A stretch of 64,000 nucleotides of DNA, from the NCBI RefSeq assembly GCF_004010155.1, contig NZ_RRYH01000007.1, forward strand, positions 124,001 through 188,000, in the 5' to 3' direction. Shown piece by piece: positions 17,968-61,246 of this stretch. A model generated the notes under the pieces. That model was not told the origin of the DNA and ran no database searches. It saw only the letters and a list, made by a program, of their open reading frames with translations. This stretch comes from Solirhodobacter olei. GTDB taxonomy: Bacteria > Pseudomonadota > Alphaproteobacteria > Rhodobacterales > Rhodobacteraceae. Position numbers and translations under genes: made by a program. Numbering within the stretch: the stretch's first letter is position 1; each line of letters begins with the position of its first letter.

Positions 17968-20073
17968 CTATGCAGGCTGGATCGCGCCGACCCGGGCGCT
18001 GCCGTCATCGGCGACGGGGCGGCCCTTCATGTCCAGCGGGAAGGGGGCGAGCCCGGCCGGAACGCAGGGCAGGGCAGAGCCCGCGCCGGGCGTGTAATCC
18101 CCCATTCCACCGCCCCCCGCGCCAAAGGACTGGTCATCGGCCCAATCGGCGGCAAGCGGCGTGGCGATGGCGCCATAGGCATCGCCGGGTCCCGCGACCT
18201 CGCCCAACCAGGCGCCCGTGCCGCAGGCGGCGTTTCCGGCCTTGTCGCCCAAGAGCGCCGCATTGCCGCGGTGGCCGCAGTTGAAGGCCGCCGGCCAGTT
18301 GCCGGTCAGGTTGCCGTTCTGGCCGAAGATGTCGGTCTTGGTGTTCCGCTCCATGTTTACCGTGAAGCGCATCCAGCCGCTTTTCGCCACCCTGCTGCTG
18401 CCGCTGTCCTGGTAAAGCCAGTTGGTGCGCGAGCCGACCACCGTATTGGCGATCGACAGCACGTTCTCCGCCGTGGTCACGTCGCCATCCGCGCTTACGC
18501 CGAAGGCGCAGTTGGTGTCGCCCCCGGCCTGCTCGATCACGCAGCCGACGACGGCAAGCCCGCGCGGACCGATCGCTCCGCGGCCGGTGGCGTCGAACAC
18601 CCGCGTGCCGTCCTGCGACAGGGTGAAGTGGCTGTGACTGAAGAACTGCCCCTCGCCCCGCATCAGGTTGGTGGAGCCGGGGACGCGCCCGCTTGCCGCC
18701 GTCACCTGGCTTGCCACGATGTTGAAGGTGGTGTTCTTGCTGCCCGCCCCGGTGCAGCCGACGGCGGTGATATGCTTCGCCGTGCCGCCGAAATCGTCGA
18801 AAACCGCGTTGGCCCCGGTCATGTCGCAGTCTTCCAGGAAGATCCGGCCGACCCGGTAGATCCAGGCGGCATAGGCCGAGGTGCCGTTGAGATCGACGGT
18901 GACGTTCTGCATCACCACGAGATGGTCGAGCGAGGCGAGCGTCGCCGCACTGTCGAGGAAGACGGTGCTGCCGCCGGCCTTGCGCAGGGTCAGGTTGCGG
19001 AAGGCCACCATAGGGGGCAGCCCGCCGGAGATGCTGCTGCCCGGATCCTGATAAACGGTGGTGGCCATCTTCGCCGGATCCGCCGCCTCGATCGTGACCG
19101 GGATCGTGCTGGCCGCGCAGGCGGAGAAATTCGCGTGCAGATGCGTGCCTTCGATCAGCCGGATCGTCCCGCCGCTGGCCTCGTCCCGCCCGAAGTTCGC
19201 AAGGTTGAAGCCGCGCAGCGCACTGGCCGCCGCCGCGATGCTCCGGAACGGGGCCGCCCCGGCAGTGGCGGGGGTGGTGGAGGCCGCGCCCGTTCCGTCG
19301 CTCCCCCCGGCCGCGTCGACATAGGCGAAGGCGGCGCCGTAGCTGCCGGTGCGGTCGTTCAGGAATTTCAGCACGCAGAGATTGGCGGAGGGCCAGGCGT
19401 CGGCGTCGGTCGAGATCCGGAACGCCTCGCCCACCCAGGGGTAGATGATCGCGTCGAGCGTGCAGAGGGTCGCGGGGGCCAGGGCGGACAGGTCGATCGC
19501 CGCCTCGAAATACGGCGCGCTGAGGCCGGAGGCCCATTGCCGCGCGCTCATGGTGGAGACGAGCTGATCCACCTCGGTCGTGCCGTCGGAGGCGATGAAG
19601 CGCACGGCGGCGACGGGCTGGCCCGCGCGGGCATAGGCATGGGCGACGGCGAGGCGAGCCGTGAAGCTGGCCCCCGTCGTGCGCTGCAGATCCGGGGTCA
19701 GCCAGCAGGCGATCGGCTTGGGGTAGGCGCGGGTGGACGCGTTGGCGACGCCGGGGATGGTGTCGCCCGAAAAGACGAAGTCGGACAGGCTCACCTGGTC
19801 GGCGGTCAGCGTGGCCTGGTCCGGGTAGGGCTGCCGCAGTCGGGTCATGATCACCACCGGGTCCGTCCGGGTGGTAGCGAGGCCGGCGGGGGTGAAGCCG
19901 GGGCGGGTGACCGCGATCATCTCTGGGGCCGTGACAGGGTCGAATATGGAGGGATCTGGATAGGTGGCGGTGAAGCCCTCGGCGCCGATCGCGGTGACGG
20001 GCGAGGGCGCGGCGGGGGCGGCGCTGCGCCGTTCGGAGGGGCGGGAAAGATGAAGTCCGATCGTCATCTGCAT
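17968..20073 (-). CDS. Large protein with predicted right-handed beta-helix, function unknown
   Basis: This 701-residue protein has no named homologue that I recognise. From about residue 275 it shows the entry motif of pectin-lyase-like parallel beta-helices (AYVDAAGGSDGTG...APFRSIAAAASAL), then repeating short strands rich in Asn, Thr and Gly through about residue 600 (HLVVMQNVTVDLNGTSAYA, RIFLEDCDMTGANAVFDDF). The first 230 residues look like beta-sandwich material (FTATYPDPSIFDP, VVIMTRLRQPYPDQATL). No signal peptide or transmembrane helix is visible, so export would need another route or the protein is cytoplasmic. The ATG at 20073 has AAGGA eight bases upstream. It lies inside a polysaccharide gene group, divergent from an O-antigen-ligase-like gene; binding or cleaving that polymer is a guess. 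Confidence 0.65.
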   Translation of the reverse strand: MQMTIGLHLSRPSERRSAAPAAPSPVTAIGAEGFTATYPDPSIFDPVTAPEMIAVTRPGFTPAGLATTRTDPVVIMTRLRQPYPDQATLTADQVSLSDFVFSGDTIPGVANASTRAYPKPIACWLTPDLQRTTGASFTARLAVAHAYARAGQPVAAVRFIASDGTTEVDQLVSTMSARQWASGLSAPYFEAAIDLSALAPATLCTLDAIIYPWVGEAFRISTDADAWPSANLCVLKFLNDRTGSYGAAFAYVDAAGGSDGTGAASTTPATAGAAPFRSIAAAASALRGFNLANFGRDEASGGTIRLIEGTHLHANFSACAASTIPVTIEAADPAKMATTVYQDPGSSISGGLPPMVAFRNLTLRKAGGSTVFLDSAATLASLDHLVVMQNVTVDLNGTSAYAAWIYRVGRIFLEDCDMTGANAVFDDFGGTAKHITAVGCTGAGSKNTTFNIVASQVTAASGRVPGSTNLMRGEGQFFSHSHFTLSQDGTRVFDATGRGAIGPRGLAVVGCVIEQAGGDTNCAFGVSADGDVTTAENVLSIANTVVGSRTNWLYQDSGSSRVAKSGWMRFTVNMERNTKTDIFGQNGNLTGNWPAAFNCGHRGNAALLGDKAGNAACGTGAWLGEVAGPGDAYGAIATPLAADWADDQSFGAGGGGMGDYTPGAGSALPCVPAGLAPFPLDMKGRPVADDGSARVGAIQPA

Positions 20074-20198
20074 CGCGGGATCCTTCGCAAGACGCGGCCG
20101 GCGCGGGCCGGCGGCAAGGCGCCAGACCCTGCCACGGCGCCCCGGGCCGTTGCGCCGGGACGGGGTGGAGCGCGCGCAACCAGGGGGAGGGCCGCGCA

Positions 20199-21584
20199 AT
20201 GGCAGTGATCGAACGGGTCGTACCGGCGACCGGGGAAGATGCGCCGGGGCCGCTTGCGCTGCCGGTGCAGCTTTACCTGGTCACGGTGCTGTTGACCGTC
20301 AGCGTGCAGATCGGCCCGCTTTACGTCACCGGGCTGCGCGCGCTGCTGATCGTGCTGGTGCTGCCGCTTGCGTTCGGCCTCGTCAACGGGCGCTTCGGGC
20401 CGCCGCGCGCGGTCGACGGGTTCTTCGCCGCGCATCTCCTCTGGGCCGGGCTGGCGCTGGCGCTCGACAACCCCGGCCGGGTGGTGGAGAACTTCGGCGC
20501 GCAGGGGGTGGAGTTCTCTGGCGGCTACCTGCTCGCCCGGGCGCATATCCGCAGCGCCGCAGATTTTCGCGCCCTCTGCCGTGCGCTGACGCTGTTGACC
20601 CTCGCCACCCTGCCGCTGGCGCTGTGGGAGGCGGCGACCGGCCAGGCCCCCCTGATCGCGCTTCTCTCCGCGCTGCCGGGCGTGGCGACGGTCGCGCCGG
20701 TGGAGGCGGGGCTGCGCCTCGGCCTTCACCGCGTGCAGATGGATTTCGCCCACCCGATCCATTATGGCCTGTTCTGCTCCGTCGCCTTCGTCTTCTGCCT
20801 TTTGGGCCTGAACCGGGTCTTTCCAGACGGCGCACGCCGTCTTGCCGCCGCTGCCGTGGTACTCTGCGGGGGCCTGGCGCTGTCGAGCGGCGCGCTGCTC
20901 GCCATGGCGCTGCAACTCGGGCTGCTCGCCTGGCACCGGATCTTCGGGGCCAGCCGCTATTGCTGGGGGGCGCTGATCGGGGTGCTCGGCTCGGGCTACC
21001 TTGTGGTCGATCTGGCCGCGCACCGCACGCCGATGCAGCTGTTCATGGCCTATGCCACCTTCGACGCGCAGACCGCCTATTACCGCAAGCTGATATTCGA
21101 CTGGGGGATGGTGAACGTCCTCGCCCATCCTGCCTTCGGCATCGGGCTGAACGACTGGGTGCGGCCCTCGTTCATGGCCTCGCCCTCGGTCGACAACTTC
21201 TGGCTGCTGACGGCGATGCGCTACGGGCTGCCGGGGTTTGCCTTCCTCGCCGCCGGCTGGGGCCTGGCCCTGGTGCAGGTCGCGCGGCGGGACCTGGCGG
21301 GCGATCCGGGGCTGGAGGCGCTGCGGCGGGCCTGGGTCTTCGCAATGGTCGGGCTGAGCTTCACGCTGGCGACGGTGGATATCTGGCGGACGATCTATTC
21401 CTTCACCGTCTTCCTCTTCGGTGCCGGGGTCTGGCTGTTGGAGGCGGAGCCGTCCGAAAGGCCCGCCCCGCCGGACCCCGCACCGCACCGCCGCCATGCG
21501 CCGCCGCTCTACCGCCGCCCCGGGCTGACCACAGCGCGACCAAGGCAGCCGGCGCGGCGCACCCGCTTTCCGCCCGCGGGCTGA
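20199..21584 (+). CDS. O-antigen ligase/polymerase-like membrane protein
   Basis: This 461-residue polytopic protein has about 10-12 hydrophobic segments. A large periplasmic loop (about residues 275-345, MQLFMAYATFDAQTAYYRKLIF... NVLAHPAFGIGLNDWVRP) carries the AHPxxGIG element seen in Wzy and WaaL proteins. Such proteins polymerise or transfer undecaprenyl-linked glycans at the periplasmic face. The last 45 residues are proline- and arginine-rich and cytoplasmic in character. Divergent from the beta-helix gene and convergent with the ABC exporter. Confidence 0.8.
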   Translation: MAVIERVVPATGEDAPGPLALPVQLYLVTVLLTVSVQIGPLYVTGLRALLIVLVLPLAFGLVNGRFGPPRAVDGFFAAHLLWAGLALALDNPGRVVENFGAQGVEFSGGYLLARAHIRSAADFRALCRALTLLTLATLPLALWEAATGQAPLIALLSALPGVATVAPVEAGLRLGLHRVQMDFAHPIHYGLFCSVAFVFCLLGLNRVFPDGARRLAAAAVVLCGGLALSSGALLAMALQLGLLAWHRIFGASRYCWGALIGVLGSGYLVVDLAAHRTPMQLFMAYATFDAQTAYYRKLIFDWGMVNVLAHPAFGIGLNDWVRPSFMASPSVDNFWLLTAMRYGLPGFAFLAAGWGLALVQVARRDLAGDPGLEALRRAWVFAMVGLSFTLATVDIWRTIYSFTVFLFGAGVWLLEAEPSERPAPPDPAPHRRHAPPLYRRPGLTTARPRQPARRTRFPPAG

Positions 21585-23455: not shown

Positions 23456-24424
23456 TCAGCCGATGTCGACCTCCAGCGCCTTGCCGCTGGCGCGGGCGGC
23501 CTCCAGCACCCGGGCGGCGACGGCGAGGTCCTGCAGCGCGACGCCGGTGCCGTCGAAGAGCGTGATCTCCTCCGCCGACTGCCGCCCGGGGGCGAGGCCC
23601 GCGATGACGGCGCCGATCTCGGTGATCGCCTCCGGCGCCAGAAGCCCCTCGGCCACGGCATGCTGCGCCTCGCCAAGGCTGACGGACTGTGCCCGCTCGT
23701 CGCAGAAGACCCGGGCGCGGGCGAGAAGTGCTGCCTCCACCTCCTGCTTGCCCTTCGTGTCGGTGCCCATGCAGGCGACGTGGGTGCCGGGGCGGACCTG
23801 CGCGGCCATCAGGATCGGTGCGAAGCTCGAGGTGATCGTGACGATCACGTCGGCCTCGGCGCCCAGCGCATCGAGGCTGACCGGTTCGAAGGGCAGGCCG
23901 ATCTCGGCGGCGGTGGCGGCGAGGCGGTCGAGCATCTCGGGATGCAGGTTCCAGCCCACCACGCGCTCGAAATTCCCGACCCGCGCCGCCGCGCGCATCT
24001 GAAAGGCGGACTGGTGACCGGCACCGATCATGCCGAGAACCTTCGCCTCCGGCCGCGCGAGATGGCGGATCGAGACCGCCGCCGCGGCCGCCGTCCGCAG
24101 TGCGGTCAGAAGGTTGCCGCCGACCATCGCCGCGGGCCGTCCGCTGTCCGGGTCGAAGAGGAAGACGGTCGACTGGTGGTTGGTCAGCCCCTTCGCGGCG
24201 TTGCCGGGCCAGTAGCCGCCGGCCTTCACGCCCAGCACCTCGCCGGCCCGGTCGAAGCCGGATTTGAAGCCGTAGAGGGCATCGGCATGGCCGATCGCCT
24301 CTCGGATCACCGGGAAATTCACCGCCTCGCCCCGGGCCATCGCGGCGAAGACCGCCTCCACCGCCTCATAGGCATCGGCCTCGGTCATCAGCGCGGCGAT
24401 CTCGCGCTCCGGCACGATCAGCAT
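23456..24424 (-). CDS. bhcD: Iminosuccinate reductase (beta-hydroxyaspartate cycle)
   Basis: This 322-residue NAD(P)H-dependent enzyme of the ornithine cyclodeaminase/mu-crystallin family has the Rossmann motif MIGAGHQSAFQMRAA, the substrate-side lysine region GVKAGGYWPGN, and EITLFDGTGVALQDLAVA. By name it would be an ornithine cyclodeaminase, but as the last member of a bhcA-bhcB-bhcC-bhcD order it matches BhcD, which reduces iminosuccinate to aspartate and so regenerates the amino donor. The ATG at 24424 has AGGAGG eight bases upstream; an in-frame start 11 codons earlier lacks this. It is separated from bhcC by 107 bases containing a repeat element. Confidence 0.88.
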   Translation of the reverse strand: MLIVPEREIAALMTEADAYEAVEAVFAAMARGEAVNFPVIREAIGHADALYGFKSGFDRAGEVLGVKAGGYWPGNAAKGLTNHQSTVFLFDPDSGRPAAMVGGNLLTALRTAAAAAVSIRHLARPEAKVLGMIGAGHQSAFQMRAAARVGNFERVVGWNLHPEMLDRLAATAAEIGLPFEPVSLDALGAEADVIVTITSSFAPILMAAQVRPGTHVACMGTDTKGKQEVEAALLARARVFCDERAQSVSLGEAQHAVAEGLLAPEAITEIGAVIAGLAPGRQSAEEITLFDGTGVALQDLAVAARVLEAARASGKALEVDIG

Positions 24425-24487
24425 CGCCGGTTCCTCCTGTCTTCTGTCCATCAACATCCCCCGCGGAGCGCGCCCTGGCTGGCCATC

Positions 24488-24528
24488 GGGCGCCTCCGGC
24501 GGGGGAGTATTTCTTCCAAGAAAAAGCC
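24488..24528. repeat. Intergenic element with GAGTATTT tail, copy 2, inside the bhc operon
   Basis: CGCC-TCC-GGCG, GGGGGAGTATTTC and TTCCAAGAAAAAG resemble the right half of the element at 5468-5522 in the same orientation. It lies between bhcC and bhcD, where the other bhc genes are spaced by only a few bases. Confidence 0.6.
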
Positions 24529-24531
24529 CTG

Positions 24532-25686
24532 TCAGAGCCCCTTGCCGCGTGCCGTCACCGGGATCAGCCGCTCTACCTTGCCGCCACGAACGCCGACGTA
24601 CCAGTCATGCACGTTGCAGGTCGGGTCGCAGTGGCCGGGGACGAGGCGCAGCTTGTCGTTGATCTGCAGCTTGCCGGCCGGATCCTCGATCACCCCGTGC
24701 TCGTCGGAACACTTGATGTATTTCACGTCGGTCCGCCCGAAGACCACCGGCAGGCCACTATCGACCGACTGCGCCTTCAGGCCCGCGTCGCAGACGGCCT
24801 TGTCCGCCTTGGTGTGGCTCATCACCGAGGTGAGCAGGAACAGGCTGTGCTCGAATTCCGTCTCGTCGATGCGGCGCCCGTCCTTGTCATGGATCCGGCC
24901 GTAATCGGCATCCATGAAGGCGTAGGAGCCGCATTGCAGCTCGTTATAGACGCCGGAGGTGCCCTCGAATTCATAGCTGCCGGTGCCGGCGCCGCCGACG
25001 ATGGCGCAGGTCAGGCCCTCGGCCTTCAGCGCGGCGACCGCCTCTGTCACCATGGCGACGGCCACGTCGATCTTGGCCTTGCGGTCGGCCCAGTCCTGCA
25101 GGTGCTGCATCGCACCCTGGTAGGCCTGGATGCCGGAGAAGGCGAGGCCGGGGGCCGCGGCGATGGCCTTCGCGATCTCCACCACGGCCTCGGTCGAGTT
25201 CACGCCGCAGCGGCCGGCGCCGCAGTCGATCTCCACCAGGCACTCTATCGTGCTGCCGTGGCGCTGCGCCGCGGCCGAGAGGTCGGCCACATTGGTCGGG
25301 TCATCTACGCAGACGATGGTGCGGCAGAGTTTCGGCAACCGCGCCAGCCGGTCGATCTTCGCCGGGTCGCGGACCTGGTTCGACACCAGGACGTCCTTCA
25401 CCCCGGCGCGGGCGAAGGCCTCTGCCTCGCTCACCTTCTGGCAGCAGATGCCGCAGGCGCCGGCGGCGATCTGCATCAGCGCGATGTCGGCCGATTTGTG
25501 CATCTTGCCGTGGACCCGCAGCCGCACGCCCATCTGGTTGGCGAAACCCTGCATCTTGGCGATGTTGCGGTCGAGCGCGTCGAGATCGACGACGAGGCAG
25601 GGGGTCTGGATCTCCGCCTCGGCCATGCCCGGGGCGGCGGGGATGTCATAGCCTACTTCTAGGCCGTTGAAAGTCTGTGCGTTCAT
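24532..25686 (-). CDS. bhcC: Beta-hydroxyaspartate aldolase (beta-hydroxyaspartate cycle)
   Basis: This 384-residue fold-type III PLP enzyme of the D-threonine aldolase/DSD1 family condenses glycine and glyoxylate into (2R,3S)-beta-hydroxyaspartate. The PLP lysine lies in RVHGKMHKSAD (K61), and the metal-binding C-terminus is GHCDPTCNVHDWYVGVRGG. The N-terminus (GYDIPAAPGM...IQTPCLVVDLDALDRN) agrees with the Paracoccus denitrificans BhcC as I remember it. The start at 25686 follows GAGGAGGAACC, nine bases after the bhcB stop. Gene order supports BhcC over a generic D-threonine aldolase. Confidence 0.9.
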   Translation of the reverse strand: MNAQTFNGLEVGYDIPAAPGMAEAEIQTPCLVVDLDALDRNIAKMQGFANQMGVRLRVHGKMHKSADIALMQIAAGACGICCQKVSEAEAFARAGVKDVLVSNQVRDPAKIDRLARLPKLCRTIVCVDDPTNVADLSAAAQRHGSTIECLVEIDCGAGRCGVNSTEAVVEIAKAIAAAPGLAFSGIQAYQGAMQHLQDWADRKAKIDVAVAMVTEAVAALKAEGLTCAIVGGAGTGSYEFEGTSGVYNELQCGSYAFMDADYGRIHDKDGRRIDETEFEHSLFLLTSVMSHTKADKAVCDAGLKAQSVDSGLPVVFGRTDVKYIKCSDEHGVIEDPAGKLQINDKLRLVPGHCDPTCNVHDWYVGVRGGKVERLIPVTARGKGL

Positions 25687-25695
25687 GGTTCCTCC

Positions 25696-26649
25696 TCAGC
25701 CCTTCATCCAGGGCAGCTTGTCCAGGTCGACGTTCCCGCCGGTGATCACGACGCCGACGCGCTTGCCGGCGAAAAGCTCTCGGTTCCTCAGGATCATGGC
25801 CAGCGGCACGGCTGAGGACGGCTCCATCACGATCTTCATCCGCTTCCAGATCAGCTTCATCGCCTCCACGATCTCGTCTTCCTCGGCGGTGAGGATGTCG
25901 GTGACGAAGCGGCTGACGAAATGCCAGGTGAGTTCCTTCAGCGGCACCTTCAGCCCGTCGGCCACCGTCTCGGGCGCATCATCGGCGATGATATGGCCGG
26001 CGCGGAAGCTGCGGGCGGCGTCATCGGCCTGTTTCGGCTCGGCGGCGTAGATCTTCACCCCCGGCGCGAGGGTGGAAAGCGTCAGGCAGGTGCCGGAGAT
26101 CATGCCGCCGCCGCCGATGGGGGCGACGATCGCGTCCAGTCCCTCGACCTGATCCAGCATCTCGCGCGAGCAGGTGGCCTGCCCGGCGATCACGCGCGGG
26201 TCGTTGTAGGGATGGACGAATTCCGCCCCCGTTTCCGCCACCACGCGGGCGAAGACCTCCTCTCGCGAAGAAGTCGAGGGTTCGCATTCCACGACGCGCC
26301 CGCCATAGCCCTTCACCGCGTCCTTCTTGGCCTGCGGCGCGGTGCGCGGCATGACCACGGTGCAGGGGATGCCCCGCCGGCCCGCCGCATAGGACAGCGA
26401 CAGCCCGTGGTTGCCGGAGGAATGCGTGGCCACACCGCGCGCCGCCTGCGCCTCGGTCAGCCCGAAGACGGCGTTGGAGGCGCCGCGTGCCTTGAAGGCA
26501 CCGGCTTTCTGGAAGTTCTCGCATTTGAAGAACAGCTCCGCCCCGGTCAGCGCATTCAGGTAGCTGGAGGTCAGCACCGGGGTACGGTGGACATACGGCG
26601 CGATGCGGTCGTGCGCGGCCAGGACGTCATCGAAGGTCGGGATATACAT
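25696..26649 (-). CDS. bhcB: Beta-hydroxyaspartate dehydratase (beta-hydroxyaspartate cycle)
   Basis: This 317-residue fold-type II PLP enzyme related to threonine dehydratase and serine racemase dehydrates beta-hydroxyaspartate to iminosuccinate. The PLP lysine is K53 (AGAFKARGASNAVF), and the phosphate-binding glycine loop is PIGGGGMISGT. The start MYIPTFDDVLAAHDRI at 26649 matches the family N-terminus; an alternative ATG 12 codons upstream (26685) lies one base past the bhcA stop and would be translationally coupled. Neither has a clear Shine-Dalgarno sequence. No ACT regulatory domain is present, unlike biosynthetic threonine deaminase. Confidence 0.9.
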   Translation of the reverse strand: MYIPTFDDVLAAHDRIAPYVHRTPVLTSSYLNALTGAELFFKCENFQKAGAFKARGASNAVFGLTEAQAARGVATHSSGNHGLSLSYAAGRRGIPCTVVMPRTAPQAKKDAVKGYGGRVVECEPSTSSREEVFARVVAETGAEFVHPYNDPRVIAGQATCSREMLDQVEGLDAIVAPIGGGGMISGTCLTLSTLAPGVKIYAAEPKQADDAARSFRAGHIIADDAPETVADGLKVPLKELTWHFVSRFVTDILTAEEDEIVEAMKLIWKRMKIVMEPSSAVPLAMILRNRELFAGKRVGVVITGGNVDLDKLPWMKG

Positions 26650-26686
26650 GGTGTTCAGGCTGTTCGCTGTGTTCGGGTGATCCATC

Positions 26687-27877
26687 TCAGGCCGCGGCGC
26701 GCGCCGCCTCCCCATGCGTGTTGCGATAGTAATCCTGCGCCGCCGCGACGCCAGCGCCAAGCCGGACCGGCCAGCCAAGATCCGCCATGCACATCTCCAC
26801 CGTGGCGAGCCCGGCGAGCGCCATCACGTCGGTCATCTGGCCGAGGTGGCCGATGCGGAAGACCTTGCCCGCGACCTCGCCAAGGCCGACACCGAAGGCG
26901 ACATCATACTTGCTCGCGGCAAGCTGGACGAGGTCGGTGCCGTTGCAGCCCTCGGGCACGGTAACGGCAGTGACCGTCTCGGAATAGAGGTCGGGCGAAG
27001 CGGCGAAGGGGCGCAGGCCCCAGGCCGCGACGGCGCGGCGCACGCCCTCGGCAATGCGGTGGTGGCGGGCGAAGACATTCTCCAGCCCCTCGTCCAGCAG
27101 CATCCGGACGGAGGTGGCAAGCCCGTTCAGCAGACCCACGGCGGGCGTGTAGGGATAGCCGCCGGTGGCATAGCTGCGGCGCATGTCGGCGAAGTCGAAG
27201 AATGTCCGTGGCAGCTGTGCGGTTTCCATCGCCGCCAGCGCCTTCGGGCTGACCCCGACGATGGCGAGGCCCGCGGGCAGCATGAAGCCCTTCTGGCTGC
27301 CCGTCACCGCGATATCGACGCCCCAGGCCCCCATCTCGAACGGCATGGAGGCGATGGAGGAGACGCCATCGACGAACAGCATTGCCGGATGCCCGGCCGC
27401 GTCCATTGCCCGGCGGATCCCCGCGATGTCGGAGCGGACGCCGGTCGCCGTCTCGTTATGCGTGGCGAGGACGGCCTTGATCTGGTGGCCCCGGTCGGCC
27501 TTCAGCGCCGCCTCGATCTGCGCGATGGGCGCGCCCTGGCCCCAGGGCGTCTCGATCACCTGGACGTTCAGCCCGTGGCGGCGGCAGAGGTCGATCCAGC
27601 GGTGGCTGAACATGCCGAAGCGCGCCGCCAGAACCGTGTCGCCGGGCGAAAGGGTGTTGGCCACCGCCGCCTCCCAGCCGCCGGTTCCGCTGGAGGGGAA
27701 GATGATGACCTCGCCCTCGCGCATCCTCAGCACCTCACGCACCCCCGCCACGGCCGGCTGGAAGATCCCGGCGAAGACCGGCGAGCGGTGATCGATCGTC
27801 GGCATGTCGCAGGCCTTGCGGAGGGCCTCCGGCATATTGGTCGGGCCGGGAATGAAGACGGGGTTCTGCGAAGTCAT
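26687..27877 (-). CDS. bhcA: Aspartate-glyoxylate aminotransferase (beta-hydroxyaspartate cycle)
   Basis: This 396-residue class V (serine-glyoxylate type) aminotransferase makes glycine and oxaloacetate from glyoxylate and aspartate, the first and last chemistry of the cycle. The PLP lysine is K196 (VTGSQKGFMLPAGL), with the Asp in FVDGVSS and PSSGTGGWEAA as the phosphate loop. The ATG at 27877 has GGAAGGAACC just upstream. It is the first gene of the bhcABCD operon and divergent from bhcR. By sequence alone it could be a serine-glyoxylate aminotransferase; the operon decides. Confidence 0.9.
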   Translation of the reverse strand: MTSQNPVFIPGPTNMPEALRKACDMPTIDHRSPVFAGIFQPAVAGVREVLRMREGEVIIFPSSGTGGWEAAVANTLSPGDTVLAARFGMFSHRWIDLCRRHGLNVQVIETPWGQGAPIAQIEAALKADRGHQIKAVLATHNETATGVRSDIAGIRRAMDAAGHPAMLFVDGVSSIASMPFEMGAWGVDIAVTGSQKGFMLPAGLAIVGVSPKALAAMETAQLPRTFFDFADMRRSYATGGYPYTPAVGLLNGLATSVRMLLDEGLENVFARHHRIAEGVRRAVAAWGLRPFAASPDLYSETVTAVTVPEGCNGTDLVQLAASKYDVAFGVGLGEVAGKVFRIGHLGQMTDVMALAGLATVEMCMADLGWPVRLGAGVAAAQDYYRNTHGEAARAAA

Positions 27878-27957
27878 GGCGGGTTCCTTCCGGCAGGCTT
27901 GTGTCGCGGATCAATCGGACCGCCCCGGCAAGCTAGGCGGAGGGGGCTCGCAGTGCA

Positions 27958-28056
27958 ATTTTTTCGAAATATTTTTTCATATCTGCCATCATGCCGATCA
28001 AACCACTTGTTTTGCAGGCATTTCTGGTTTTTCATCTGCCGCAACATTTTTTCATG
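27958..28056. promoter_or_regulatory. bhcA-bhcR control region with four TTTTTC-type repeats
   Basis: Within a GC-rich genome this spacer is strikingly AT-rich. It holds ATTTTTTCGAAAT (27958-27970, with the inner palindrome TTTCGAAA), ATTTTTTCATATCTGCC (27971-27987), TTTTTCATCTGCC (28028-28040) and ATTTTTTCATG (28046-28056), all in the same orientation. Such repeated sites between a divergent IclR regulator and its target are likely BhcR operators. No experiment is implied by the sequence. Confidence 0.6.
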
Positions 28057-28073
28057 CTGCTGGAGATTCCCCC

Positions 28074-28886
28074 ATGCCTCCTCCCCGCGCGCGCGGCCGG
28101 CCGAAGGCCTTCCACGACAAGACCGAGCAGAACACGGTGCAATCGCTCGACCGGGCGATGGCGCTTCTGCGCCGGTTGAGCGAACGCCCGGGGCTGACCC
28201 TGTCAGAACTTGCGGCAGAGACCGGTCAGGCCCCGGCGACGGTCTACCGCGTACTCACCACCCTGCAGAAGCACCGCATGGTGGAGATGGAGGAGGCCGG
28301 CCAGCTCTGGCACGTGGGCGCGGGCAGCTTCCGCATCGGCTCTGCCTTCCTGCGGCGCACCAAGCTGGCCGAGCGCGCGCGCGGGCCGATGCAGGCGCTG
28401 ATGCGGCAGACGGGGGAAACGGCGAACCTCGGCGTCGAATGCCAGGAGGAGGTGCTGTTTCTCGCCCAGGTCGAGACGCATGAGGCAATCCGCGCCTTCT
28501 TCCCGCCCGGCACGCTCAGCCCGATGCATGTCTCCGGCATCGGCAAGGCGCTGCTGGCCTGGTACCCGGAGGACCGCGTGAGCCGGATCATCGCGCTGCG
28601 CGGCCTTCAGGGATTCACGCCGCGCTCGCTGACCGACCGGGCGGCCCTGGCGGCCGACCTTGCGCAAACCCGCCTGCGCGGCGTCGCGATCGACGATCAG
28701 GAGAAGGCGGAGGGGATGCGCTGCATCGCCGCGCCGATCTTCAACGCGTTCGGAGAGCCGGTCGCGGGGCTGTCGGTCTCCGGGCCCGCCTTCCGCATTC
28801 CGCTGTCGGAGGCCGGGCAGATCGGCGCGCTGGTGCGCGCCGCCGCCAACGAGGTGACGGAAGCCATCGGCGGCACCGGGCGCTGA
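28074..28886 (+). CDS. bhcR: IclR-family regulator of the beta-hydroxyaspartate cycle
   Basis: This 270-residue IclR protein has an N-terminal winged helix-turn-helix (about residues 22-80, LTLSELAAETGQAPATVYRVL) and a C-terminal GAF-like effector domain (about 95-265) with GTLSPMHVSGIGKALLAW. In Paracoccus, BhcR controls the bhc operon in response to glyoxylate; the same role is inferred from the divergent position. The ATG at 28074 has GGAG ten bases before it and avoids a long antisense extension. It converges with the permease gene, 22 bases apart. Confidence 0.9.
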   Translation: MPPPRARGRPKAFHDKTEQNTVQSLDRAMALLRRLSERPGLTLSELAAETGQAPATVYRVLTTLQKHRMVEMEEAGQLWHVGAGSFRIGSAFLRRTKLAERARGPMQALMRQTGETANLGVECQEEVLFLAQVETHEAIRAFFPPGTLSPMHVSGIGKALLAWYPEDRVSRIIALRGLQGFTPRSLTDRAALAADLAQTRLRGVAIDDQEKAEGMRCIAAPIFNAFGEPVAGLSVSGPAFRIPLSEAGQIGALVRAAANEVTEAIGGTGR

Positions 28887-28908: not shown

Positions 28909-30390
28909 TCAGGCCTCGGCGGCTTCCGCCGCGTCGCGGGCGTCCGTCAGCGTGCCATGGGCGCCGTTCAGGAAGGCGTTCAGCACGACGGCCGAGACGG
29001 TGGCGAGCAGGATCCCCGATTCCAGCATCGGGTGCAGCGCCTGCGGCATCCACTGGTCGAAGTTCGGCGCCACCATCGGGATCATCCCCATGCCGATGGA
29101 GATCGCGACGATGAAGAGGTTGTGCCGGTTGTTGTGGAAATCGACCCGGCCGAGGATGCGGATCCCGGTCGCCGCCACCATGCCGAACATCACCAGCCCC
29201 GCGCCGCCCAGCACCGCCGTCGGCAGCGCTGCGACCAGCGCGCCGATCTTTGGCACCAGCCCGAGGACCAGCATGATCGCCCCGCCCGTCACCGTCACGA
29301 AGCGCGAGCGGATGCCGGTCACGCCCACCAGCCCGACGTTCTGCGAGAAGGAGGTATAGGGGAAGGTGTTGAAGAGCCCGCCCACCAGCGTACCGAGGCC
29401 ATCGCCCCGAAGACCGGCGGCAAGCCGCGGCTGGGTCATCTCGGAATCGGTCATGTCGCAGAGCGCAAGGAACATGCCGGTCGATTCGACCATCGTGATC
29501 AGGATCACCAGGACCATCGTCAGGATCGGCACGACCTGGAAGATCGGGGTGCCGAAATGGAACGGCACGATCGGCGCGAACCAGGCCGCCCCGGAGAGGG
29601 CGCCGAAGCCCATCAGCCCGGCGATGGCGGCGACCACGCCCCCCGCGACGATCCCCATCAGCACGGCGATATTGGCCAGGAACCCCTTGGCGTAGCGGGC
29701 GAAGCCCAGCACCACGATCAGCACGAGGGCCGAGATCAGAAGGTTCGTGCCATTGGCATAGGCCGGGTTCGCCTGCGTCGGCACCAGCTTCAGGCCGTGC
29801 GGCACGGCGGGCACGGCGGAACCCTGCGCGGCGGCCAGATCGCCGATCTGCTTCAGCCAGTGCGCCTGCGCCGGATCGACCAGCTTCGGCGGCATCACCG
29901 CCGGGTTGCCGAAGATCCACCAGATCCCGATCTCCATCAGCGTGATCCCGATCACGGTGATCACCGTGCCGGTCACCACCGCCGGGAAGAACCGCAGCAG
30001 CTTGCTGACCGCCGGGGCGATCAGGATGCCGACGACACCGGCGGCCATGATCGAGCCGAAGATGATCCGCGCGCCCTCGGTGCCGGAATGATGCACGCCG
30101 ATGGCGATCATCGGCCCGACCGAGGCGAAGGTCACCCCCATCATCACGGGCAGCCGCACGCCGACCCATCCGCCGATCCCGAAGGACTGGATGATCGAGA
30201 CGATGCCGCAGGCGAAGAGGTCGGCCGAGATCAGATAGGCCACATCCGCGCGCGGAAGGTTGAGGACGCCGCCGATGATATAGGGCACGGCGATGGCCCC
30301 GGCATACATCACGAGCACGTGCTGCAGCCCGAGCGTAAGGAGCTTGCCGGCCGGCAGCACCTCGTCGACTGGATGGGTGGATTGGGTCAT
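28909..30390 (-). CDS. NCS2 family xanthine/uracil permease
   Basis: This 493-residue nucleobase:cation symporter-2 protein has about 14 membrane segments. Recognisable elements are LGLQHVLVMYAGAIAVPYIIG in helix 1, the TMVESTGMFLAL region in helix 8, and FNTFPYTSFSQNVGLVGVTG in helix 10. The QH motif and SQNVG(L/I) favour purines (xanthine or urate) over uracil, but specificity is not settled. Transcribed alone toward bhcR; no purine riboswitch-like leader seen. Confidence 0.9.
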   Translation of the reverse strand: MTQSTHPVDEVLPAGKLLTLGLQHVLVMYAGAIAVPYIIGGVLNLPRADVAYLISADLFACGIVSIIQSFGIGGWVGVRLPVMMGVTFASVGPMIAIGVHHSGTEGARIIFGSIMAAGVVGILIAPAVSKLLRFFPAVVTGTVITVIGITLMEIGIWWIFGNPAVMPPKLVDPAQAHWLKQIGDLAAAQGSAVPAVPHGLKLVPTQANPAYANGTNLLISALVLIVVLGFARYAKGFLANIAVLMGIVAGGVVAAIAGLMGFGALSGAAWFAPIVPFHFGTPIFQVVPILTMVLVILITMVESTGMFLALCDMTDSEMTQPRLAAGLRGDGLGTLVGGLFNTFPYTSFSQNVGLVGVTGIRSRFVTVTGGAIMLVLGLVPKIGALVAALPTAVLGGAGLVMFGMVAATGIRILGRVDFHNNRHNLFIVAISIGMGMIPMVAPNFDQWMPQALHPMLESGILLATVSAVVLNAFLNGAHGTLTDARDAAEAAEA

Positions 30391-30741: not shown

Positions 30742-30817
30742 TGGTGCCGGTGAAGGGACTCGAACCCCCGACCCCATCATTACGAATGACGTGCTCTACC
30801 AGCTGAGCTACACCGGC
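30742..30817 (-). tRNA. tRNA-Thr (anticodon CGT)
   Basis: The minus strand folds into a 76-base cloverleaf. The acceptor stem is GCCGGTG/CACCGGC, the D arm GCTCAGCTGGTAGAGC, and the anticodon stem CGTCA/TGATG with loop TTCGTAA (anticodon CGT). The T arm has TTCGAGT, the discriminator is A, and the 3' CCA is encoded. CGT reads the ACG threonine codon. Confidence 0.95.
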
Positions 30818-30947: not shown

Positions 30948-32435
30948 CTAATTTGTGCTCTCCGATCCGCCCGGCGCGGCGCCTTCCTCGATCACCTCGG
31001 CATCCTCCACAAGCGCGGCACTGGCGGCGGCGGTCTCGTCCTTCGCCGCCGCTGCGGCGGGCGTGCCGACGATCAGCGGCAGCATCTCGCTGCCGGTGGG
31101 CGAAACCCCGGGCGCGCCCTTGATCTCGCGCCAGCTCAAGGTGTCGACGCTGCCGCAGCCGGTGCAGACCGGCTCCCATTCGGCGTGCGGCGTGTTGCAC
31201 TTGTCGCAGACCCATTGCGGCCCGCGCGAGGCGGTGAGCGCCCGGGTCAGCCAGCCGCGCACCACCGCGTCCTCCGACCCCTCGCCGCGCTCGATCGCGG
31301 CCATGATGGTCAGCGCGCGGGCGGTGGGGTGGGTTTCGGGCAGATCGCCCAGCGCCTTGCGGGCGGCCGCGAAATCTTCGGCCGCGATGTTCAGCTCCGC
31401 CAGCAGCAGCCGCGTCTCTTCCGCCTTCGGGCGGATGTCGGTCAGGTGGCGGAACCGCTTCAGGCGCTCCTGCGGGCTCTCCTCCGGCGCGATCTCGGCG
31501 AAGGCAGCGGCAAGCTCGGGGTGCGGCAGCGCCTCCCAGGCCTTGCGGATGATCTTGGCCGCCTGGCGCGCGTGCCCGGCGCCGATCTCCGCCCGCGCGG
31601 CCATGGCGGCGGCGGGCACGAGGTCGGGCGACTCGCGGTTGGCGGCGATCGCGGCCTCTCCCGCGGCCTGGGCATTGCCGGCCTCGGCGAAGGCGCGGGC
31701 CTGCTCGAGCGCAAGCACCGCGTCGCGGCGGCGGTGGACGTCGCGCGGCAGGTTCCCGGCCTGGCGCTTGGCCTGCAGCGTGGTCCGCGCGCCCTTCCAG
31801 TCCCCCGCGCCCGCCTGGAGTTTCAGCAGTGTGTCCTGTACCTCCTCGTGCTTCGGCTTCAGGGCAAAGGCCTTCTCGGCCAGCTTCAGCGCCGTCTCGG
31901 TATCCCCCTCGGCCAGCTTCTGCTTCAGGATCCCGCGCACGCCGGCAAAGCGTGTGCGCTCATCGGTCAGCAGACGCTTGTAGACCTCGGTGGCGCGCCT
32001 GGTGTCGCCCGCCATCTCGGCCGCCTGGGCGGCGATCAGGTTGGTCAGATGCGGCCGCTGCAGGAATTTCTCGGCCCGGCCGATCTTGCCCAGCGCCTGC
32101 CGCGCCTCGCCCGAGGCCAGCGCCATCAGCGCGTCGGCCAGCGCGTCAAAGCCCTTGCGCTCGCGGTTGCGGGTGAAGGCGCGGGTCAGCGCCGTGTCGT
32201 CGCCGTTGAAGAAGCGGACGGTGGCGACGAGGATCCCCACCAGCCGGATCAGAAGCCAGACGAGCGCGACAAGGATCAGCGCCGCCACGATCACCTGGAT
32301 CGGGCCAAGCGTTACCTCCCAGCCGTCCATGGCGATCACCATGTTGCCGCTGGTGTGCAGCAGATAGCCGCCGCCGAGCGTCACCGCGGCGACAAGCGCG
32401 ACGAAGATCAGGATCTTGAGAAGGGACCAGAGCAT
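30948..32435 (-). CDS. hemY: HemY-like membrane protein with TPR repeats and C-terminal zinc ribbon
   Basis: This 495-residue protein has two N-terminal membrane helices (residues about 5-25 and 45-65) and the HemY N-terminal domain, followed by tetratricopeptide-like helices to about 400. The C-terminus adds a zinc ribbon (CDKC...CTGC, about residues 425-446), absent from E. coli HemY as I know it, and then an Ala/Glu-rich tail. HemY sits beside hemD in many proteobacteria and is proposed to scaffold late heme-synthesis proteins; this is not the Bacillus protoporphyrinogen oxidase. It follows mic60 by nine bases in the hemD operon. Confidence 0.87.
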   Translation of the reverse strand: MLWSLLKILIFVALVAAVTLGGGYLLHTSGNMVIAMDGWEVTLGPIQVIVAALILVALVWLLIRLVGILVATVRFFNGDDTALTRAFTRNRERKGFDALADALMALASGEARQALGKIGRAEKFLQRPHLTNLIAAQAAEMAGDTRRATEVYKRLLTDERTRFAGVRGILKQKLAEGDTETALKLAEKAFALKPKHEEVQDTLLKLQAGAGDWKGARTTLQAKRQAGNLPRDVHRRRDAVLALEQARAFAEAGNAQAAGEAAIAANRESPDLVPAAAMAARAEIGAGHARQAAKIIRKAWEALPHPELAAAFAEIAPEESPQERLKRFRHLTDIRPKAEETRLLLAELNIAAEDFAAARKALGDLPETHPTARALTIMAAIERGEGSEDAVVRGWLTRALTASRGPQWVCDKCNTPHAEWEPVCTGCGSVDTLSWREIKGAPGVSPTGSEMLPLIVGTPAAAAAKDETAAASAALVEDAEVIEEGAAPGGSESTN

Positions 32436-32444
32436 CGCCGCCTC

Positions 32445-33809
32445 CTATTTACCGAGGCTCTTGGCAAGCGCGTCGACCGCCTGCAAGGCCTGCAGCCTCG
32501 CATTGGCCATTGTCAGCCAATCCGCCATCGCCGACTGGCCGACGACGGGCAGCGCGTCGGTCTCTTTCACCGCCTCGGCCAGCTTGCCGTCGCGCAGATC
32601 CGCCTCCACGCGGGAGAGAATCGCATCCGGGCCGCTGCCCTGGCGCGGCTTCAGCGAACGCAGGCCGGTCTGGGTCTTCAGGAACGCACCGATCCGGTCC
32701 ATCACGCCGGAGCCCATCGTCGCCTTGATCGAGGCGTCGAGCGCGGCGCGCGCGGCGGCCGGGTAGGCGCGCAGCAGGTCGGCCCGGGTCGGCACCCCGG
32801 CCTCGGCCGTATTGGTCAGCGCGGCGGGCACCTTGGCGCCCTGGGCGCGCAGCTCGGCCAGCGCCGGGGCGAAACTGCCGCCGAGGTCCAGCGCCGTCTG
32901 CACCCGGGTCAGCGCGGCGCGGGCGAGCGCGGCCTTGGCGGTCGCCTCCGCGTCGGCCTTCATCTGCTGGGCCTGCTTCTCGGCCTCTGCGATCCCGGCG
33001 GACGCCTTGTCGCCGACGGACTTGATCTGTGCCGCGAGGTCGGCGCTGGCCTTCCGCTGGGCCTCGATCTGGGCGGAGAGAGAGGCGAGCGCCGCCGCAT
33101 CCGGCGCCCCGGCCGCCGGGGCGGAGGAAGCGGCAGAGGCAGGGGCACCCGTGCCGGAGGCCTGCGGCATCTTCTCCAGCGCCGCGACCCGTCCTTCAAG
33201 GCTCTTCAGGCTCTGATCCAGCCCGTTCTGGCCCTTTTGCAGCTCTGTTTTCAGCGCCGCGACCTGCGCCTGCGCGGCGCTGATCCTGGCGCCGAGGCCC
33301 GCGGCAGAGGCCGCCTGCTCCTCCGTCGCCTTCACCGATTTGTCGAGCGCGGCCACCTGCGTCTTGAGGGCCGAAAGCGCCGCTTCCGCCGTGTCGAGCC
33401 GTTGGGAAAGGCTGTCGGTCACCTGCACCGAGGGCCCGAACGGCCAGCCCTGCGGCACCAGCTGCGCCAGCCCGAAACCGATCGCCGCCGCGACGACCCC
33501 GCCTAGAATCGCCCCCAGCGCCCCGCCAGAGCGGCGCGGGCTTTCCGGCGCGGGTGGCGGCGCGATCGGGGGCACCGGCCCTGCCGCGCCTTCTTTCGCG
33601 GGCGCCTCGGGCGCGGCCTCGGGTTCCGGCTCCGCCTCTGCGGCCCCGGTCTTGGACTCGGTCTCGGCCCCGGGCTTTTCGGCGGCCTCCCCGGCGCTGG
33701 CCTCGGGGGTCGATTCGCTCTTGTCGCCAAGCGCGATCACGGCCGCCGGGCTGTCCATTTCCTCGGCCGTCTCTTCCTTGGCGCCCTTGGACGTCTTGCG
33801 GTCGGCCAT
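32445..33809 (-). CDS. Mitofilin/Mic60 homologue (alphaproteobacterial)
   Basis: This 454-residue protein is acidic and Pro/Ala-rich at the N-terminus (1-90), with a single membrane helix (about 94-112, GGALGAILGGVVAAAIGFG). A long coiled-coil region follows (about 125-290, LSQRLDTAEAALSALKTQVA and repeats) and then a C-terminal mitofilin-like helical domain. Alphaproteobacterial Mic60 is considered the ancestor of the mitochondrial crista-junction protein and bends intracytoplasmic membranes in relatives. The position between hemD and hemY is its known conserved context. Low-complexity composition makes homology judgement partly dependent on context. Confidence 0.8.
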   Translation of the reverse strand: MADRKTSKGAKEETAEEMDSPAAVIALGDKSESTPEASAGEAAEKPGAETESKTGAAEAEPEPEAAPEAPAKEGAAGPVPPIAPPPAPESPRRSGGALGAILGGVVAAAIGFGLAQLVPQGWPFGPSVQVTDSLSQRLDTAEAALSALKTQVAALDKSVKATEEQAASAAGLGARISAAQAQVAALKTELQKGQNGLDQSLKSLEGRVAALEKMPQASGTGAPASAASSAPAAGAPDAAALASLSAQIEAQRKASADLAAQIKSVGDKASAGIAEAEKQAQQMKADAEATAKAALARAALTRVQTALDLGGSFAPALAELRAQGAKVPAALTNTAEAGVPTRADLLRAYPAAARAALDASIKATMGSGVMDRIGAFLKTQTGLRSLKPRQGSGPDAILSRVEADLRDGKLAEAVKETDALPVVGQSAMADWLTMANARLQALQAVDALAKSLGK

Positions 33810-33883
33810 GCACTCATCTCCTCGGGCAGAGGGCTCGCGCCCCAGCGTGACCCGGCAAGACTACCCCGTCGCCGCCCGCCGCT

Positions 33884-34597
33884 TCAAGCGGTTGAGCCTG
33901 CGACGAGTTCTTCCGCCAACGCGTCGAGCATGGCCCCGGCATCCGGCCGCGCGGCGACGCGGACCGGGCCCGGCCCCAGCGCCTCCGCCACGGCAGGGCT
34001 CAGCGCGACAAGGCGAAGCGGCGCGTCGGGCGCCGGGAAAGCCGCGCGGAAAAGCCGCGCCGAGCGGGGCGAGAAGACCGGCGCGATCACCGGGGTTTGA
34101 CCGGCAAGCGCCGCCAGCGCTTCGGCCGAGGGCGCGCGCGCCTCCTGGGCATAGGCCGGATGGCTGCGCAGCGCGATTCCGGCCGCAGCCAGCCGCCCTT
34201 CCAGATCCCCGGCCCGATGCGCGCCGTGGCTATGCAGAAGCGGGCCCGTGACGCCTTCGCGCGCCAGCATCTCGGCCAGCGCCGCCACGTCGCCGCCCGC
34301 CGCATGGGCCCGAAGGCCCCCGGCCCGCGCCGCCTCTGCCGTGCGGGGGCCGACGCACCAGGCGGGCAGAATTCGACCCTGTTCCAGCCGAAGATAGGCC
34401 GCGACGCCATTCTCGGAGGTGAAGACAAGCCCCCTGATCCCGGCCAGGTCGGGGCGCGTGTCGGCGAAGGTGATTTCGATCAGCGGCGCGATCAGCGGCA
34501 CGACCGCCGCCCCGAACCGCGCCCGCGCAGCTTCCGCGAAACGGCGGGAGGCCGCTTCGGGCCGGGTCAGAAGCAGGATCGGGGCAGGCTTTCGCAT
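33884..34597 (-). CDS. hemD: Uroporphyrinogen-III synthase
   Basis: This 237-residue enzyme cyclises hydroxymethylbilane with inversion of ring D. The family has low sequence conservation; supporting parts are [18 protein letters not shown] at the start, [26 protein letters not shown] and [11 protein letters not shown]. It is the first gene of the hemD-mic60-hemY operon, and the hemE gene lies elsewhere in this window. Divergent from tsaD. Confidence 0.9.
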
Positions 34598-34674
34598 CGG
34601 CGCCGGGATTGTCTGAGGGGTATCGCGGTGTTACCTGCGATGCACGCCTGCCGCAACAGATTGCCCCGACCCGG

Positions 34675-60224: not shown

Positions 60225-61246
60225 TCCCGCGCCTCCGCCATGGTCACTTCGATGGGCTTGAGCACATACATCCGCCCCGGATCGCGCATCCGCCCGGCAA
60301 TCCGGCCCGCCTTCGGACCGGAGCCGATGAAGACATCTGCCCGCCATGGCCCCTTGATCGCGGTACCGGCATCCTGCGCCACCATCAGCCGGTGCATTGG
60401 ATGCGCCCCGCCGATCGACACCCAGACCGGCGCGCCAAGCGGCACATAGCGCGGATCGACGGCGAGGCTGCGGCCCGCTGTCACCGGCACATGCATCGCG
60501 CCGTAGGGGCCAAGGTTGGCCGGAAGGTGCAGTCTGTGAAAGAACACAAAGGAGGGGTTCGACCACAGCAACGCCTGGCCCTCCTCCGGATGGGCCCGCA
60601 CCCAGTGGGCGATGGACTGCGCCGAGACGGCGGAGGCCGGCAGCAGCCCGCGCCGTGCCATCTCTCGCCCGACGGAGCGGTAGGGCTGGCCATTCTTGGC
60701 GGCGAACCCAACGCGCATAACCGTGCCATCGGGCAGCAGCAGGCGGCCCGAGCCCTGAATCTGCAGGAAGAAGACCTCCACCGGATCGGCAAGCCAGGCA
60801 AGTTCCAGCCCGCGGCCCTTCAGAAGGCCCCGGGATTCGATCGCCTTGCGGCTATACCAGCGGTGGCCCGGCACAAGCTCTGGCGGCTTGGCGTAGATTG
60901 GATAGGCAAACCGCGCCGTCCGAACGGGCGAGGCCGCGATCTCCGGTTCGTAATAGCCGGTGAAAAGCGTGCGGCGGCCCGTGCCGACCCGCTCGAGCCG
61001 GAAGTATCGCTCGAAAAAGGCCCGGGCATCGCCGGCTTGCGACGCAGCGTCGCAGGCCTCGCGCCAGGCCGGGCGCTCCATCTGCGGGCAGCTTTTTCGA
61101 AACGCAGCCAGCGCCGCCGCCTGATCGTCGGCGGACCAGCCGACCAGGTCGTGAAACCGAAGCGGCTTCGCCCGTCCCGGCGCGGCGGGCCCGAGGGTCA
61201 CCGCGGCAAGCGCCGTGATGAGCGCGGCGCGGCGGGCACGTCTCAT
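60221..61246 (-). CDS. mltA: Membrane-bound lytic transglycosylase A
   Basis: This 341-residue enzyme cleaves the glycan strand, forming 1,6-anhydroMurNAc. A signal peptide is present (RRAALITALAAVTLG). Family segments are TGYYEPEI, FFLQIQGSGRLLLPDG, SFVFF and the catalytic Asp region MVAQDAGTAIKGPWRADVFI. Products could feed the amgK-murU recycling pair. Overlaps timA and smr by four bases each. Confidence 0.95.
   Translation of the reverse strand: MRRARRAALITALAAVTLGPAAPGRAKPLRFHDLVGWSADDQAAALAAFRKSCPQMERPAWREACDAASQAGDARAFFERYFRLERVGTGRRTLFTGYYEPEIAASPVRTARFAYPIYAKPPELVPGHRWYSRKAIESRGLLKGRGLELAWLADPVEVFFLQIQGSGRLLLPDGTVMRVGFAAKNGQPYRSVGREMARRGLLPASAVSAQSIAHWVRAHPEEGQALLWSNPSFVFFHRLHLPANLGPYGAMHVPVTAGRSLAVDPRYVPLGAPVWVSIGGAHPMHRLMVAQDAGTAIKGPWRADVFIGSGPKAGRIAGRMRDPGRMYVLKPIEVTMAEARE

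Follow-up and report, generated by a model that had tools for sequence, protein, structure and literature searches.

The bhcRABCD cluster of Paracoccus denitrificans encodes the four enzymes of the β-hydroxyaspartate cycle together with the regulator BhcR, whose gene is divergent from bhcA. In the available part of its description (PMC11323563), the cycle is discussed mainly as a route for algal glycolate; glyoxylate can also derive from purines and allantoin, BhcR is the sister of IclR and AllR, and a potential palindromic BhcR site lies upstream of the −35 region of bhcA. We found no mention of linkage between bhc and purine genes in that part of the paper and no report of it in searches of open-access literature; as subscription journals lie mostly outside the latter, this absence is weak evidence. 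Here we analyzed a stretch of 64,000 nucleotides of Solirhodobacter olei (contig NZ_RRYH01000007.1, positions 124,001–188,000; the whole stretch is called the window). At 23456–28886 it carries an intact bhcRABCD cluster, with the same four enzymes and regulator as in P. denitrificans and with bhcR likewise divergent from bhcA. The cluster is an ordinary instance of a known, widespread type and, judging from protein families and gene order, it very probably encodes the complete, intact cycle. The comparison with P. denitrificans covers the genes bhcRABCD alone; in the window a purine permease adjoins bhcR, and the neighbourhoods of related clusters appear to suggest allantoin as a source of glyoxylate no less strongly than glycolate.

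According to the open reading frame (ORF) listing and translation, bhcA, bhcB, bhcC and bhcD follow each other on the minus strand, bhcR is on the plus strand, and none of the five genes contains an internal stop. All five proteins exceed the NCBIfam equivalog cut-offs for their Bhc families. The predicted L-aspartate:glyoxylate aminotransferase BhcA (26687–27877, minus strand, 396 residues) scores 741.6 bits with NF045640 (cut-off 650), and the β-hydroxyaspartate dehydratase BhcB (25696–26649, minus strand, 317 residues) scores 611.9 with NF045641 (cut-off 550). For the 3-hydroxy-D-aspartate aldolase BhcC (24532–25686, minus strand, 384 residues) the margin is small, 704.8 against 690 (NF045642); the iminosuccinate reductase BhcD (23456–24424, minus strand, 322 residues) reaches 575.6 against 500 (NF045643), and the IclR-family regulator BhcR (28074–28886, plus strand, 270 residues) reaches 406.3 bits against 350 (NF045644). 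Compared to the longest ORFs, the starts of bhcB (26649, ORF 26778), bhcD (24424, ORF 24457) and bhcR (28074, ORF 27804) were trimmed. The intergenic gaps are 37 bp (A–B), 9 bp (B–C) and 107 bp (C–D), and 196 bp separate the bhcA and bhcR start codons. A first-pass annotation of this DNA had proposed a complete bhc cluster at 23456–28886, in the order bhcABCD with a divergent IclR regulator. The curated models and the synteny bear this out, strands and BhcR equivalog included; its outer coordinates are correct, and bhcB, bhcD and bhcR start inside the ORFs listed.

Gene content, gene order, family membership, the regulatory site and the linkage counts were computed, whereas the reactions and the regulation are background knowledge. 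In the cycle so assembled, BhcA would transaminate glyoxylate to glycine, BhcC would join glycine with a second glyoxylate to give β-hydroxyaspartate, BhcB would dehydrate this to iminosuccinate, and BhcD would reduce iminosuccinate to aspartate; aspartate would serve as the amino donor of BhcA and leave as oxaloacetate. BhcR would sense glyoxylate and switch the operon, probably via a conserved site upstream of bhcA. Glyoxylate itself probably arrives by two routes, from glycolate by GlcDEF and from urate by way of allantoin and ureidoglycolate.

The arrangement is well kept in relatives. Among 80 related loci, the best of at least 588 confirmed stretches from a BhcC scan, 66 have bhcR on one strand and bhcA, bhcB, bhcC and bhcD in this order on the other; at the thresholds used, the remaining 14 carry ABCD without R (nine loci), BCD (four) or CD (one), and 11 of the 14 are on stretches shorter than 21 kb. 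We also surveyed 149 genomes of Rhodobacteraceae, one per genus and the source genome included. BhcC is over the curated cut-off in 60 of them and reaches at least 500 bits in 77. The source genome has one BhcA and one BhcC over the cut-off; a second bhc copy was looked for through these two proteins, copies of B and D lying outside the search, and no second BhcA or BhcC passed. Relatives are found on plasmids too, 525 plasmid records matching BhcC; we inspected three, from Leisingera, Aminobacter and Paracoccus marcusii.

Some of these clusters lie beside genes of purine catabolism. Within the stretch available at each of the 80 loci, and counting matches that cover at least half of the query, the ureidoglycolate lyase gene allA is present at 25, puuE at 24, the 5-hydroxyisourate (HIU) hydrolase gene at 21 and the ureidoglycine aminohydrolase gene at 19; restricted to the 56 fully flanked loci, the numbers are 22, 22, 20 and 17. 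When all ORFs at these 56 loci were clustered without any selection of genes, the top recurrent neighbours, apart from the bhc genes, were allA (22), puuE (22), a glyceraldehyde-3-phosphate dehydrogenase (GAPDH)-family gene (17) and the ureidoglycine aminohydrolase gene (17); clusters were named by sequence and position, and many antisense shadow ORFs were set aside by eye. Of the family genomes, 73 encode both AllA and a BhcC scoring 500 bits or more; in 28 of these 73 the distance between bhcC and allA is at most 10 kb, versus about 0.4 genomes expected under uniform placement. This Poisson expectation assumes a 4-Mb genome and independent genomes, and the genomes, one per genus of one family, are not independent. 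The count started from 81 BhcC rows of at least 362 bits, weaker paralogs being left out, the 500-bit threshold then excluded G030 and G034, and AllA was taken among the matches listed. With the stricter requirement of BhcC over its curated cut-off, 24 of 57 genomes are linked. The two genes, bhcC and allA, are on opposite strands in 28/28 linked genomes, and allA is 3′ of bhcC in 27/28. Loci with allantoin genes on the bhcR side occur in Aurantimonas (L024 and L035). The mere presence of allA was considered as evidence and rejected as uninformative, since AllA is near universal (138 of 149 genomes) and all 149 genomes have a GlcD homolog. The GAPDH-family gene, with an intact SCTTN motif, directly follows bhcD on the same strand at 18 of the 80 loci (12285–13292 in L009, and 17 others among L009–L088); the window has no such gene at that place.

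The gene next to bhcR has orthologs in such neighbourhoods. It encodes an NCS2 xanthine-type permease (28909–30390, minus strand, convergent with bhcR), which scores 482.6 bits with TIGR03173 (pbuX, cut-off 414.15) and has no close copy in the rest of the genome, where the best other protein is 34–35% identical to it. Its orthologs at three close relatives (L009, L010 and L012) are 78–83% identical and lie 3′ of bhcD, at about 3.3 kb, 0.1 kb and 1.1 kb, respectively. At all three loci the permease gene heads a block encoding ureidoglycolate lyase, ureidoglycine aminohydrolase and PuuE/UraD, with the HIU hydrolase gene on the opposite strand; family models were run on the block of L009 and on part of that of L010. 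The fourth close relative (L011) has no permease or allantoin block within its flanks. The simplest reading would be that this lineage once had bhc next to the allantoin genes and that the two were later separated in the source genome, the permease gene having moved to the other side of bhc. The single tRNA gene predicted by ARAGORN in the window, tRNA-Thr (cgt) at 30742–30817, adjoins the permease gene and might mark the rearrangement point.

The source genome offers candidates for both glyoxylate supplies. The genes glcD, glcE and glcF are adjacent on another contig (C33), and GlcF, at 456.6 bits, passes its cut-off of 333. A further contig (C69) carries genes for HIU hydrolase, a PuuE/UraD fusion, ureidoglycine aminohydrolase and ureidoglycolate lyase, whose neighbours encode a regulator of the LysR family and a protein carrying the urate oxidase N-terminal domain; the sole genome match to PF04115 (ureidoglycolate lyase) is in this group. 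No permease of the 28909–30390 kind is found in 18 kb around it. By gene content both supply routes appear to be present, covering urate onward and glycolate onward. As a competing use of glyoxylate we considered glyoxylate carboligase; no protein of the genome is over its cut-off, and the best candidate is an acetolactate synthase. The bhc cluster is the sole dedicated glyoxylate assimilation route among those searched for. The first-pass annotation had the organism use glycolate or other C2 compounds, which is plausible with glcDEF elsewhere in the genome; it did not mention allantoin-derived glyoxylate, to which the neighbourhoods of the relatives appear to point.

The bhcR–bhcA intergenic region contains a conserved motif, TTTCGAAAAAATTG (27956–27969, minus strand), which we propose as a candidate BhcR operator. 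We compared 61 such regions, that of the window and those of the 60 loci (of 80) in which the bhcR and bhcA matches start near the N-termini and lie 60–400 bp apart. With at most two mismatches the motif occurs in 59 of the 61, against a mean of 0.84 and a maximum of 3 after dinucleotide shuffling, and with at most one mismatch in 39 (0.04 when shuffled); it was derived by aligning 11 of the regions, for which the count is therefore not independent. In 53 of the 59 regions the motif is 50–56 bp upstream of bhcA; in the window this distance is 78 bp. A search of the 4.78-Mb genome at up to one mismatch returned a single site, the one upstream of bhcA, and no site for the reversed pattern; with two mismatches allowed, a second match appears in the window, at position 61089. 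Eight of the nine glyoxylate-binding pocket residues of P. denitrificans BhcR (Table 1 of PMC11323563) are kept in the window's BhcR, as counted ungapped from one motif, and the exception is Ala in place of Thr at position 143 (IclR numbering). Control of the allantoin or glc loci by BhcR was considered as well. There is no TTTCGAAAAAATTG match with up to two mismatches in 18 kb around the allantoin genes or in 14 kb around the glc genes, so common BhcR control is unsupported.

We see about an even chance that, in many Rhodobacterales, bhc is kept at its locus by urate and allantoin catabolism and not by glycolate, forming the carbon-conserving end of purine breakdown, and that the window holds a split ancestral bhc–purine block with the permease left by bhcR. 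That the purine route supplies glyoxylate to the window's own cluster is, going by synteny, rather probable. Several points weigh against this picture of two supplies and a purine-linked locus. GlcE misses its cut-off by 1.8 bits (282.2 versus 284), and GlcD reaches 442.7 versus 567.9, a cut-off that GlcD passes in 0/149 family genomes. In the source genome the allantoin genes are on a different contig from bhc (C69, the window being on C91), no ureidoglycolate lyase gene lies within 10 kb of bhcC, and among purine genes the permease gene alone adjoins bhc. Neither supply route seems tied to BhcR by a candidate site. Among the 73 genomes with both genes, 45 do not have bhcC and allA within 10 kb. 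Linkage to glycolate genes exists too: at two of the 80 loci (L037:2188 and L047:6851), bhcD is directly followed by glcD and glcE, 70–75% and 56–58% identical, respectively, to those of the source genome. Matches to glcD were found at five loci and to glcE at four, and those of L024, L042 and L051 (glcD) and of L042 and L051 (glcE) are about 30% identical.

The two loci with glycolate linkage and the 45 genomes without nearby allA support the strongest alternative, namely the standard account in which the cluster is devoted to glycolate (and ethylene glycol) alone; the adjoining permease and the purine linkage of the relatives would then be incidental. It draws further support from the glcDEF genes of the source genome, from the lack of a BhcR-like site at allantoin genes that are not adjacent to bhc, and from the spread of AllA, present in 73 of the 77 genomes whose BhcC scores 500 bits or more and in 65 of the 72 others. 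The linkage counts speak otherwise: compared to the 28 genomes with allA near bhcC, the best GlcD match lies no more than 10 kb from bhcC in 0/75 genomes and no more than 25 kb from it in 2/75 (best match per genome, G119 and G098 left out). A quick tree of BhcB and BhcC also argues against incidental linkage. With the 56 fully flanked loci and the window, 22 rows being linked, the label requires 11 changes, four of these being forced by starred branches, and 17.5 when shuffled. The linked state is partly inherited and was repeatedly gained or lost. We regard the glycolate-only alternative as possible and rather doubtful.

The remaining alternative concerns the enzymes themselves. In a search of PDB sequences, the top solved relative of BhcC is the D-3-hydroxyaspartate aldolase 6QKB (617.9 bits, residues 1–383), and that of BhcD is the iminosuccinate reductase 6RQA (464.4 bits, near full length). 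The first-pass annotation had suggested alignment with the P. denitrificans Bhc proteins; BhcC and BhcD were aligned to these two structures, which we take to come from that organism, and BhcA and BhcB were scored by the equivalog models alone. The top solved relatives of the latter two are cousins, the serine–glyoxylate aminotransferase 6PK1 for BhcA and serine racemases for BhcB, so that only the equivalog models and gene order tell BhcA and BhcB from them. The equivalog cut-offs stand in for clade placement, the BhcB and BhcC tree being built from bhc loci alone, without outgroup paralogs. The lysines that we presume to bind pyridoxal phosphate (PLP) are in place in BhcA (K196, TGSQKG), BhcB (K53, GAFKARG) and BhcC (K61, HGKMHKS), catalytic residues in general being assigned on the same presumption, and BhcC carries a GHCDPTCN motif. 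BhcD, presumably a member of the ornithine cyclodeaminase family of NAD(P) enzymes, has for that reason no PLP lysine to inspect; the earlier statement that all catalytic lysines are intact holds for the motifs of A, B and C and has no object in BhcD. That the four enzymes are clustered paralogs with other jobs (serine–glyoxylate aminotransferase, threonine dehydratase, D-threonine aldolase and ornithine cyclodeaminase), superfamilies which do contain them and which the best structures of BhcA and BhcB would suit, is highly improbable, as each protein is above its Bhc equivalog cut-off and below those of the other listed families (for BhcB, the best 25 of 40 families) and the five-gene order is kept across related loci.

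Beyond the permease, 30948–34597 (minus strand) encodes a HemY_N/TPR protein, a weakly mitofilin-like protein (below the cut-off) and HemD, with TsaD divergent at 34609. At 17968–20199 there is a 743-residue ORF of coding-like base composition without a Pfam match, and near it are a weakly O-antigen-ligase-like gene (below the cut-off) and an ABC transporter gene. At the thresholds used, the flankers tested (HemY, mitofilin-like, ABC transporter, O-antigen-ligase-like and the 743-residue ORF) are absent from the 80 loci.

With this cluster, a further genome joins those known to carry the ecologically important pathway for carbon-conserving glyoxylate assimilation. The added value lies in a testable link between the cycle and purine catabolism and in a candidate operator. 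The position of bhc beside purine-to-glyoxylate genes in relatives suggests a second, less-noticed use of the cycle; if the cycle also recovers purine carbon without loss of CO2, then estimates of its marine role based on genes or transcripts would mix two substrates.

Two described systems allow this link to be compared further. Plasmid unnamed6 of Leisingera caerulea (NZ_CP081096.1) carries bhcR and bhcABCD with an adjoining NCS2 symporter, like the window; in Leisingera the symporter adjoins the bhcD end, in the window the permease adjoins the bhcR end, and they are likened by family and adjacency to the cluster. Permeases of Tropicibacter in the same place as the Leisingera symporter are 32% identical to that of the window. 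Different from the window, where the permease stands alone, the Leisingera cluster lies amid genes for ureidoglycine aminohydrolase, ureidoglycolate lyase, puuE, uraH and urate hydroxylase. The Aminobacter and P. marcusii plasmids have no allantoin genes among the genes listed in the stretch, for which the gene table is incomplete. In Pseudomonas aeruginosa, the allantoin-inducible gcl cluster PA1498–PA1502, in the available part of its description (PMC12694930), is a dedicated route for allantoin-derived glyoxylate. Compared to the source genome, where no carboligase is over the cut-off, PA1498–PA1502 uses glyoxylate carboligase and tartronate semialdehyde reductase.

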